From NCBI RefSeq assembly GCF_020217425.1, contig NZ_CP084090.1:62001-126000 (forward strand): a stretch of DNA of 64,000 nt, written 5' to 3'. Source of the stretch: Halomicrobium urmianum (GTDB lineage Archaea; Halobacteriota; Halobacteria; Halobacteriales; Haloarculaceae). Position 1 is the first letter of the stretch, and every line of letters begins with the position of its first letter. The position numbers were made by a program, and so were the translations under genes. The notes beneath the pieces were generated by a model, which ran no database searches, was not told the origin of the DNA, and saw nothing but the letters and a program-made list of their open reading frames with translations. Shown here in pieces: positions 57,721-61,650 of the stretch.

Positions 57721-58880
57721 ATGGGTGAGTATCACGACGATTCGATCGAACAGGGGGAAGGGGGACGTCGAACGCGCGGTCGGACCAGACGGCAGGTGCT
57801 GCGCGCCGGTGCAGCGACGGGCCTGGGAACCGTCCTGCTCGGCGGGAGTCAGACGGCCGCTGCGGATCCGTCGGACGTGCCGAAGGAGAACTTCCACGTC
57901 TACCTGGCGTTCGGCCAGTCGAACATGGAGGGGCAGGGGACGATCGAGGGCCAGGACCGCCAGGTGCCCGATCGCTTCCACGTCCTGCAGGACAAGACCT
58001 GTTCCGACAGGGGCTGGGAGTACAGTGAGTGGCGCGTCGCCGAGCCGCCGCTGAACCGCTGCTGGGCCGGCATCGGACCGATGGACTACTTCGGCCGGAC
58101 GATGGTCGAGGAGGCCGACGAGTCGATCCACGTCGGCGTCGTCCCGGCCGCGGTCAGCGGGGCCGACATCGCGCTCTTCCAGAAGGGCGCGCCCGTCGGC
58201 CGTAACGACCGCGACATTCCCCAGCAGTTCGACGGGGCCTACCAGTGGCTGCTGGACCTCGCCCAGCAGGCACAGGCGGTCGGCACGATCAAGGGCATCA
58301 TCTTCCACCAGGGCGAGACCAACACCGGCCAGTCCGACTGGAAGAACAAGGTCGCGGGCATCGTCAGCGACCTCAAGTCGGACCTCGACGTCGGCGACGT
58401 CCCGTTCCTCGCCGGCGAACTCATGTACAGCGAGTACAACGGCTGCTGCGAGGTCCACAACCAGGAGATCCACCAGCTGCCGGACCTGATCCCCAACGCC
58501 CACGTCGTATCGGCCGAGGGGCTGGACAACCAGGACCAGTACCACTTCTCGACGGAGGCCTACCGCGAGCTCGGCCGCCGGTACGCCGAGGAGATGCTCG
58601 AGCACGTCGACGTGTCCGACGGCGGCGAGTCCACGCCCGAACCCGTCGACCCCCCGAGGCGGAGCGCCCGTCCTGGCCGGGGAACGCGACCGATCCGGAC
58701 GGCGACGGCTACTACGAGGACCTCAACGGCAACGGCGAGGTCGACTTCCGGGACGTCGTCGACTACTTCAACGGCATGGACGGCGAGGGCATGCAGAACG
58801 ACGTCCAGTACTACGACTACAACGGCAACGGCGAGGTCGACTACGCCGACCTCGTCGACCTCTTCGGACAGGTCGAGTGA
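57721..58880 (+). CDS. Tat-exported SGNH/sialate-O-acetylesterase-like esterase with dockerin-like tail in the -1 frame
   Basis: Frame 1 encodes a Tat signal (RTRRQVLRAGAATGLGTVLLGG, split here as RTRRQVL and AGAATGLGTVLLGG) and an esterase domain with the serine block YLAFGQSNMEGQG, FHQGETN and DQYHFSTEAYRELG containing the catalytic His. At ~residue 310 frame 1 turns into Arg/Thr nonsense running to 59625. In the -1 frame from 58650 the sequence reads PPEAERPSWPGNATDPDGDGYYEDLNGNGEVDFRDVV...NGNGEVDYADLVDLFGQVE, two dockerin/EF-hand-like calcium loops, and stops at 58880. The switch sits on C CCC CCG (58650-58656). Either a one-base deletion or programmed -1 slippage explains it. The joined product would be about 386 residues. 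Confidence 0.78.
58650..58656 (+). promoter_or_regulatory. Candidate -1 frameshift site (C CCC CCG)
   Basis: The zero-frame codons are GAC-CCC-CCG, so CCCCCCG fits the X XXY YYZ slippery pattern exactly in frame. The -1 frame after it is the one encoding the dockerin-like domain. A homopolymer deletion or sequencing error at the C-run is the simpler alternative. Confidence 0.4.
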
Positions 58881-58887
58881 CGGCCGA

Positions 58888-61650
58888 TCACTCGCCGGCC
58901 GAGGCCTGACGGTCCTCGCCGTCCTCGATCTCCGCGAGGACGCGCTCGTGGAACTCCCGCAGGACCGCCGACTCGTCCTCGGCGAGGACGACGTCGCTGG
59001 CCATCAGCGTGGCCAGGCCGAACGCCCGCGGCGTCGGCGAGTCGACGCGGACCGTCTCGACGGTGACGTCGCCCGTCTGGACGCCAGCGAGGACTTCCTC
59101 GATACCCGCGACGTTGAGCCTGTCCTCCAGGATCTCGCGGTAGGTCTCCTCGATCACGGCGAACTCGTCGAGGTCCTCGGCGAAGGAGAGCAGCATCTCG
59201 GAGTTGACCTGCTGCTCGCTGGCGGACTTCTCGTAGCCCTTGTAGCGCTTGAGGATCATCAGCGAGCGCGTCGCGTTGATCCGGAAGTACCGCTGGAGGA
59301 GGTCCGTGCCGTCGAGGCTGGCCCGCAGGTCCTCGCGGGCGTCCGCGGGATCGACGTCCTCGACGACGGCCTCGACGTCGACCTTGCGGTTGAGCGGCAT
59401 CGACAGCGTGAACCCGTGGTCGGCGACGGCCACCTGAACGTTGGCGTTGGCTCGCTGGGCGATGCGGTAGGCCAGCAGGCGCGAGAAGCCGTCGTTGAAC
59501 CGCCGGCCGTAGCCGGAGTGGACGTGGTAGTGACGCTCGTACTCGTCGTGGTCCAGTACCTCCTCGATCACGAGGCGCTCGTCGGTCGCGACCGACCCCG
59601 AACCGGCGTAGGCGACCTGCTCTGAGAACATCCGCGTGACCGCGCGGACACTGTTCTCGTCCAGGGGGAACTCGCGCAGCCAGTGGCGCACCGCCGGCGG
59701 ACCGCCCTCCGCGAGCTGGTCCATGAGCTGCCGCTGGAAGGCCAGCATCTCCCGGCCGAGGTCGTAGGACAGCGGGAGGCGCTCGGAGAACCACGAGGGG
59801 ACGGTCGGGCGGGCGCTGGTCCGGTCGACGTACACCTTCGAGCCGCGGCGGTAGCTGTACTCGAAGTGGTCGCCCCCGAGAACGAACACGTCGCCCTTCT
59901 CCAGCGTGTCGAGGTACTCCTCGTCGAGCTGGCCCACCCACTCGTCGCCGGCCCGGGTAAACACGTCGCAGGAGAACGAGTCGGGGATGGTACCCACGTT
60001 GGTCATGTAGATGGCCCGCGCCATCCGGCCGCGCTTGCCGATCAGGTCCGCGCCGACGTCGAACTCCTCGTAGTGGTGCTCGCCCTCGGGCGGATCGTTG
60101 GTGTCCCGCCAGATCTTGGCGTAGACGTTCTTCTCCTCCAGCCCGGGGTAGTCGGCGGTGAGGTAGCGCATGAGCTGCTCCCACCGGTCGTCGCCGTAGT
60201 CGCGGTAGGGGTAGGCGCTCTGCAGGACCGACCTGATCTCCGACTCGCGGCGGACGCCGTTGATCGCCATGCCGTAGACGTGCTGGGCGGCGACGTCGTG
60301 GGCGTTCTCGGGGACGAACACGCGGTCGACGAACCCCTCCTCGGCCTTCTTGAGCATCACCGCGCACTCGACCAGCTCGTCCCGGTCGAGCGCGACGACG
60401 CGACCGGTGACTGTCTCGCCGAGCTGGTGGCCGGCGCGGCCGATCCGCTGGAGCAGCGCTGCGACGGACTTCGGGGAGCCGACCTGCACCACGAGGTCGA
60501 CGTGGGGCATGTCGATGCCGAGTTCCAGGCTCGTCGAGGTCGTCACGACGTCGAGGCTCCCCTCCTTCAGCCGCTCCTCGATCTCCCGGCGGCGGTCCTT
60601 CGAGAGGCTGCCGTGGTGACAGCCGGAGTTGCCCTCGTCGTAGGCGTCGAACTGCTCCCGGAGGTTGTGCAACACCTGCTCGGCGCCCGAGCGGGTGTTC
60701 GTGAAGACGATGGTGTTGGTGTGGTCCCGGATCAGCTCGTGGAGTTGCGAGTAGAACCGGCTCTGGACGACGTCCCGCGGCGTGTTGATGAGGTCGTCCG
60801 CGGGGCAGGTCAGCTCCACGTCGAACTCGCGGGCGAAGCGCGCGTCGACGACCTCGAAGGCGCGCGTCTCGCCGAAGGCGTCGTTCCCCGCGGGATCGCT
60901 GCCCTCACGACCCACCAGGAACTCGCCGATCTCCTCCAGGGGCTCGACGGTCGCCGAGCAGCCGATGCGCGTGGGCGAGCCCTCGGCCATCGCCTCCAGA
61001 CGCTCCAGCGAGACCGAGAGGTGCGTGCCGCGCTTGTTGTCCGCGAGGCTGTGGATCTCGTCGACGACGACGTACTCGACGGTGCGGAGCTTCTCGCGGA
61101 ACTTCGGGCTGTTCAGCAGGATCGACAGCGTCTCGGGGGTCGTGTTCAGGATGTGCGGCGTCGTCTCCAGCATCTTCTGCCGGTCGCTGTCGCTGGTGTC
61201 GCCGTGGCGGATCGCGTGGCGGATCTCGACGTCCTCCCCGCGCTCCTCGAGTTCGTCGGTGATCCCGTCGAGCGGGACCTCCAGGTTCCGGTGGACGTCG
61301 TTGGCCAGCGCCTTCAGCGGCGAGACGTACAGGCAGTAGACGCTGTTGTCGAGCTCGTCCGCGCGAGCGCGGTCGAAGAGTTCGTTGATGATGCCACAGA
61401 AGGCACTTAACGTCTTCCCGCTGCCAGTCGGCGCCGCGATGAGGGCGTTCTCTCCCTCGTGGATCAGCGGGACGGCCTCCTTCTGGGGCGGCGTGAAGAA
61501 GCCGCCGTTCTCGGGGACGAACTCGCCGAACTCCTCGACCCACCAGTCCTGCACGACGGGCGCGAGCAGATCGAGCACGTCGCCGTCGTCGACGTCGACG
61601 GCCGCCGGGTCGACGCCGTCGACCGACGCCAGTCGCTCGCGTCCTTCCAT
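58888..61650 (-). CDS. Lhr-family superfamily 2 helicase
   Basis: A 920-residue large helicase-related protein. Motifs: FTPPQKEAVPLIHEGENALIAAPTGSGKTLSAF (Q-motif and Walker A near residue 73), TPETLSILL, VDEIHSLADNKRGTHLSVSLERL (DEIH), GCSATVEP, TNTRSGAE, and GIDMPHVDLVVQVGSPKSVAALLQRIGRAGH. The C-terminal half has the winged-helix and Lhr-specific domains. Archaeal Lhr helicases act in DNA repair and possibly RNA metabolism. ATG 61650 starts just before a ~25-residue lead. Upstream codons are unrelated. It ends 7 bases from the esterase stop. Confidence 0.9.
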   Translation of the reverse strand: MEGRERLASVDGVDPAAVDVDDGDVLDLLAPVVQDWWVEEFGEFVPENGGFFTPPQKEAVPLIHEGENALIAAPTGSGKTLSAFCGIINELFDRARADELDNSVYCLYVSPLKALANDVHRNLEVPLDGITDELEERGEDVEIRHAIRHGDTSDSDRQKMLETTPHILNTTPETLSILLNSPKFREKLRTVEYVVVDEIHSLADNKRGTHLSVSLERLEAMAEGSPTRIGCSATVEPLEEIGEFLVGREGSDPAGNDAFGETRAFEVVDARFAREFDVELTCPADDLINTPRDVVQSRFYSQLHELIRDHTNTIVFTNTRSGAEQVLHNLREQFDAYDEGNSGCHHGSLSKDRRREIEERLKEGSLDVVTTSTSLELGIDMPHVDLVVQVGSPKSVAALLQRIGRAGHQLGETVTGRVVALDRDELVECAVMLKKAEEGFVDRVFVPENAHDVAAQHVYGMAINGVRRESEIRSVLQSAYPYRDYGDDRWEQLMRYLTADYPGLEEKNVYAKIWRDTNDPPEGEHHYEEFDVGADLIGKRGRMARAIYMTNVGTIPDSFSCDVFTRAGDEWVGQLDEEYLDTLEKGDVFVLGGDHFEYSYRRGSKVYVDRTSARPTVPSWFSERLPLSYDLGREMLAFQRQLMDQLAEGGPPAVRHWLREFPLDENSVRAVTRMFSEQVAYAGSGSVATDERLVIEEVLDHDEYERHYHVHSGYGRRFNDGFSRLLAYRIAQRANANVQVAVADHGFTLSMPLNRKVDVEAVVEDVDPADAREDLRASLDGTDLLQRYFRINATRSLMILKRYKGYEKSASEQQVNSEMLLSFAEDLDEFAVIEETYREILEDRLNVAGIEEVLAGVQTGDVTVETVRVDSPTPRAFGLATLMASDVVLAEDESAVLREFHERVLAEIEDGEDRQASAGE

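Follow-up and report, generated by a model that had tools for sequence, protein, structure and literature searches.

A dockerin tail out of frame with its esterase, one of eight broken dockerin genes in the haloarchaeon Halomicrobium urmianum

Structure of the esterase gene

The stretch of DNA analysed here, referred to as the window, comprises 64,000 nucleotides of the Halomicrobium urmianum genome. It contains an esterase gene whose reading frame breaks shortly after the catalytic domain and is followed by a dockerin-encoding tail in the -1 frame. The features of this locus are as follows.

57721..58649, plus strand: zero-frame esterase open reading frame, running from its ATG as far as the break (ORF reading)
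about 57784-57864, plus strand: twin-arginine-like signal (TRRQVLRAGAATGLGTVLLGG), read from the sequence by eye without a predictor
57892..58599, plus strand: complete SASA carbohydrate esterase domain PF03629 (Pfam; profile positions 2-225 of 226)
58637..58865, plus strand: cassette of linker and dockerin, whose DNA is 90% identical to that of the tail in a GH5 gene at another place in the genome (sequence comparison)
58650..58656, plus strand: heptamer C CCC CCG, at which the frame breaks; net one base short of an open frame (sequence, codon-usage path, paralog comparison)
58656..58880, plus strand: dockerin tail in the -1 frame, with TGA at 58878-58880 (translation, codon usage, Viterbi path)
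58657..59625, plus strand: zero-frame continuation of 322 out-of-frame codons, with the first stop at 59623-59625 (ORF reading, codon usage)
58713..58853, plus strand: Dockerin_1 (PF00404) match with two EF-hand-like loops, DLNGNGEVDF and DYNGNGEVDY (Pfam)

Upstream of the break, the SASA domain was detected with 144.8 bits (E 3.9e-42; cut-off 24.8), and as a complete domain above the Pfam cut-off it places the gene product in this family. The nearest solved structures by sequence match are 1zmb and 2apj, and a search with the esterase against genome contigs returned distant bacterial homologues only. A structure model built without an alignment was of low confidence (pLDDT 41) and was left out of the argument. 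A codon-usage model trained on the organism's own genome clearly favours frame 0 for the esterase head (+134 nats vs -272 and -339).

As an earlier note on this DNA had stated, the esterase reads cleanly in one frame up to the heptamer. Frame 0 at the break is GAC CCC CCG, and position 58650 is the third base of a codon; the heptamer therefore has the phase X XXX XXZ and lies in frame for -1 slippage, which confirms a further claim of that note. The Viterbi path of the codon-usage model locates the frame change at 58653-58655. The -1 reading begins with PPEAERPSWPGNATDPDGDG and continues through both EF-hand-like loops to the TGA. Codon usage of the tail (58656-58877) favours the -1 frame with +59 nats vs -47 for frame 0, and the Dockerin_1 match reaches 27 bits at a cut-off of 22.9, which together with the two calcium-loop repeats identifies the tail as a type I dockerin. 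The tail is no chance open reading frame, because it shares 84% protein identity with a paralogous tail (E 3e-40). Thus, the description of about 75 residues of sensible -1 coding sequence with two EF-hand-like loops and a proper stop is borne out by Pfam, codon usage, and the paralog. In a plasmid collection, the sole match was to 69 nt of the dockerin, on a Haloarcula plasmid.

Beyond the break, frame 0 remains open to 59625 without a stop for 970 nt, giving 634 amino acids in total, and from position 58888 it runs antisense to a helicase gene on the opposite strand. Ribosomes that do not shift would therefore produce the esterase with a nonsense tail of 322 residues and no clean short form. 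Consequently, the suggestion that the cell makes esterase with and without the docking module fails as it was worded, since frame 0 has no nearby stop.

The paralogous cassette and the missing base

An intact counterpart of the cassette is present in the GH5 paralog (C1:3193698-3193922), in which linker and dockerin (DPVEPPEENRPSWPGNATDPDGDG...) are encoded in a single open frame. At the junction, the paralog reads CCCCCGGAGGAG and the window reads CCCCCCGAGGCG; by this comparison, the window copy is one base short relative to the paralog. Because of these two readings, the lost base may be G or C. The homopolymer deletion that had been considered in the earlier note is thus supported as a deletion, and the homopolymer part is slightly too specific, since the lost base may be G. 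With the paralogous cassette as an open-frame counterpart and the break in its own frame, the locus has two of the hallmarks of a frameshift pseudogene.

Directly before the break, the linker PV-D/E-PP matches between the window gene and the paralog in the same frame. This stretch is short, and its homology suggests that the cassette was originally joined to the esterase in frame. A fusion that was out of frame from the outset at the module boundary is less likely, given the same short in-frame match. Among 70 codons compared between the two tails, 10 carry nonsynonymous and 5 synonymous substitutions, which in a comparison of this size are too few to date the lesion or to demonstrate selection.

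Seven further genomes from the family encode orthologous esterases with 58-64% identity. None of those whose tails were read carries a dockerin, and several have other C-terminal modules. The orthologues do not bear on the junction because they have no dockerin, and its ancestral form is known only from the paralog.

Broken dockerin genes in the genome

The esterase gene is not the only dockerin gene with an interrupted frame. Sixteen dockerin genes of the genome were examined and eight of them are broken, the window esterase included. The other seven are listed below.

C1:919728: GH5-FN3 dockerin gene, frameshift
C1:748893: GH16 dockerin gene, in-frame TGA inside GH16
C2:344287: GH10 dockerin gene, frameshift inside GH10
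C3:388515: GH10 dockerin gene, frameshift inside GH10
C1:1328418: GH5 dockerin gene, frameshift between the signal and the catalytic GH5 domain
C1:3000046, 3000576, 3000855: pectate-lyase-like dockerin gene, TAG and two frameshifts
C1:2468006, 2468372: CBM3 dockerin gene, frameshift and TAA

According to Pfam, the GH10 domain on C2 is split across the break into successive parts of one domain (profile positions 9-84, then 94-307), and the GH16 and CBM3 domains adjoin their breaks. No slippery run is present at the breaks of these seven genes, and their lesions include in-frame stops. Among about 740 neighbour pairs of the main chromosome, taken as background, a simple codon-usage model with the plausibility of its calls judged by eye indicated about 10 genes as plausibly frameshifted (about 1%). 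Compared with this background, broken genes are in strong excess among the dockerin genes (Fisher P about 2e-10). Frameshift candidates of the background include a transporter-like gene and a membrane-protein gene, at L113:1217 (G000:C1 about 1961217) and L166:8671 (G000:C1 about 768671). In five genomes of the same genus, all 12 dockerin genes are single-frame and none is broken (P 0.008).

Breaks also occur in secreted-type enzymes without a dockerin, namely a GH5 gene with a frameshift at C1:1522706 (L158) and a GH10 gene with an in-frame TGA at C1:2555811 (L160), whereas those GH5 and GH10 genes that lack an evident signal are intact. Therefore, the broken set looks like secreted polysaccharide-degrading enzymes in general.

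These counts also bear on a sequencing or assembly error, in which case the true genome would be one base longer and would encode an ordinary single-frame esterase-dockerin fusion. Single-base differences at homopolymers are a common type of assembly error, and the remainder of the esterase-dockerin gene looks functional. Poor assembly across the genome was rejected as an explanation because the proportion of frame breaks elsewhere is low (only about 1%). Frame breaks are not abundant in the assembly (about 1 per 80 kb). They cluster in secreted glycosidases, and some of the lesions are in-frame stops, for which indel errors give no explanation; none of these observations says anything on this particular base. 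An error at this position is regarded as unlikely, though it has to be reckoned with.

Scaffoldin-like and cohesin-like genes

In addition to the dockerin genes, the genome contains an intact scaffoldin-like open reading frame of 1,040 amino acids (C1:2396104-2399223; L162:105-3224, minus strand). Its product has a twin-arginine-like signal, five cohesin-like repeats in tandem and, at the C terminus, a dockerin. The open reading frame is adjoined by a small gene (C1:2399406-2399911; L162) whose product has a single cohesin-like domain and a hydrophobic segment at the C terminus. A small protein of the same architecture is encoded at C1:1746902-1747291 (L100), and further ones are found in the relatives G001, G002, G004, G005, and G006. 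In genomes of the same genus, the gene with the single cohesin-like domain adjoins a long dockerin gene.

The scaffoldin-like repeats and the single domains, including the one at C1:1746902, align as one family. The latter domain passes the Pfam cohesin cut-off and is 43% identical to the first scaffoldin-like repeat, and this identity is the basis for regarding the five repeats, on which Pfam made no cohesin call, as putative cohesins. A profile of these domains gave one weak match only against solved structures; among 142 genomes of the taxonomic family, it matched 51. The scaffoldin-like protein is a possible scaffold of a haloarchaeal system resembling the cellulosome. In a comparative study of cellulose use in haloarchaea from 2023, cohesin and dockerin are absent from the main text (PMC10267330).

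Proposed slippage at the heptamer

The position of the heptamer raises the question of recoding. If ribosomes underwent programmed -1 frameshifting at C CCC CCG, a fraction of the esterase molecules would gain the dockerin. The phase of the heptamer is correct for this and the tail retains its coding character; furthermore, full-length relatives of the recoded gene fucA1 also differ by one base in the run, so that an intact paralog alone does not exclude recoding (PMC8211752). However, the usual X-XXY-YYZ rule has A or U at Y and any base except G at Z (archaeal recoding review, PMC8211752), whereas C occupies Y and G occupies Z in the heptamer of the window. A search for a downstream stem, which had been proposed in the earlier note, gave no sign of a stimulatory structure in the 120 nt following the heptamer, as folds without pseudoknots were no better than those of shuffled sequences (z +0.39; 125 of 200 shuffles equally or more stable). 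A zero-frame stop soon after the site would be expected for programmed frameshifting, but the next one is found only at 59623-59625, so that 970 nt without a stop would give the unshifted product a long nonsense tail. Conservation of the heptamer was not observed, as the paralog lacks it (CCCCCGGAGGAG in one frame) and the orthologues have no dockerin. In 582 kb of coding sequence, C CCC CCG occurs in phase 10 times, which is about 17 per Mb, and about 60 occurrences are expected genome-wide. Finally, the heptamer is absent from the breaks in all other broken dockerin genes. In a GC-rich genome, a heptamer in the right phase is thus a warning example of weak evidence for recoding, and programmed frameshifting is considered highly improbable at this site. 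Of the two readings offered in the earlier note, the single-base deletion is supported by the in-frame paralog and by the eight broken genes among 16, and programmed -1 slippage lacks support in view of the rule, the structure, the stop, conservation, and frequency.

The broader claim is that -1 frameshifting, programmed or tolerated, takes place at a C-rich slippery site in a haloarchaeon and gives a minor share of the esterase its docking module; it is very doubtful as well. If true, it would be a case of cellular, as opposed to viral, recoding in glycan degradation by a haloarchaeon. Phase variation has also to be considered, since the break lies in a homopolymer adjoining an intact module, and slipped-strand changes in the C run could toggle the dockerin between cells or generations. 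Against this, a run of six C is short, and the 582 kb of coding sequence contain 23 C6 and 45 G6 runs. No such run lies at the breaks of the other broken dockerin genes; there is hardly any likelihood that the gene is phase-variable.

Probable decay of a secreted enzyme set

The break in the esterase gene is probably a plain inactivating mutation, one of the lesions by which a set of secreted polysaccharide-degrading, dockerin-tailed enzymes is decaying. This reading is the most likely one because about half of the dockerin-tailed genes of the genome are broken by unrelated lesions, and the simplest account is that the esterase shares the fate of the other broken secreted enzymes. The ancestral gene would have encoded a secreted SASA esterase that carried a type I dockerin at its C terminus, connected via a short proline-rich linker, and a single base would have been lost in this linker at the C6/G junction. 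Translation in frame 0 would now run into the 322 out-of-frame codons, the docking tail would be made only by rare slippage, and the esterase protein would probably misfold or lose its place in the enzyme assembly. The many independent lesions in secreted polysaccharide-degrading dockerin-tailed genes would then reflect decay of the enzyme set.

The frame break, the intact cassette of the paralog, and the excess of broken dockerin genes are direct observations, from which we infer a true mutational loss of the base; it would be a recent one, given that the calcium-loop residues are still present. A point against the decay reading is that the esterase core is intact and the dockerin sequence well preserved, so that this gene itself gives no positive indication of long decay. 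The organism combines an intact scaffoldin-like gene with numerous dockerin-tailed glycosidases, half of which are broken, and may allow the loss of a polysaccharide-degrading lifestyle to be traced gene by gene.

Comparison with known systems

The fucA1 gene of Sulfolobus solfataricus, encoding an alpha-L-fucosidase, is a well-supported and experimentally shown case of programmed -1 frameshifting in archaea (PMC8211752). Like the window gene, it is an archaeal glycan-active gene that is encoded in two frames across a homopolymer heptamer and has full-length relatives that differ by one base (PMC8211752). In contrast to the window gene, it has an A-rich slippery site, rare codons, a putative stem-loop, and experimental proof (PMC8211752), whereas the site in the window is a C-rich heptamer whose Z base is G, the search downstream revealed no structure, and the observations come from sequence.

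With the SASA family (PF03629), which is related to acetylxylan esterases, the window gene shares the complete domain and the matches to 1zmb and 2apj, but its frame breaks shortly after the domain. The orthologues examined differ from it in having no dockerin, and several have long linkers and other C-terminal modules. The tail resembles the type I dockerins of cellulosomal enzymes (PF00404) in its duplicated calcium-loop segments above the Pfam cut-off and is 84% identical to the in-frame dockerin on the GH5 gene; it differs in that its reading frame is shifted by -1 against that of its esterase.

The frame break in itself is ordinary. As in sets of frameshift and nonsense pseudogenes, independent lesions are scattered across a functional gene set of which other copies are intact, although the window gene has one lesion only and its catalytic domain is complete.
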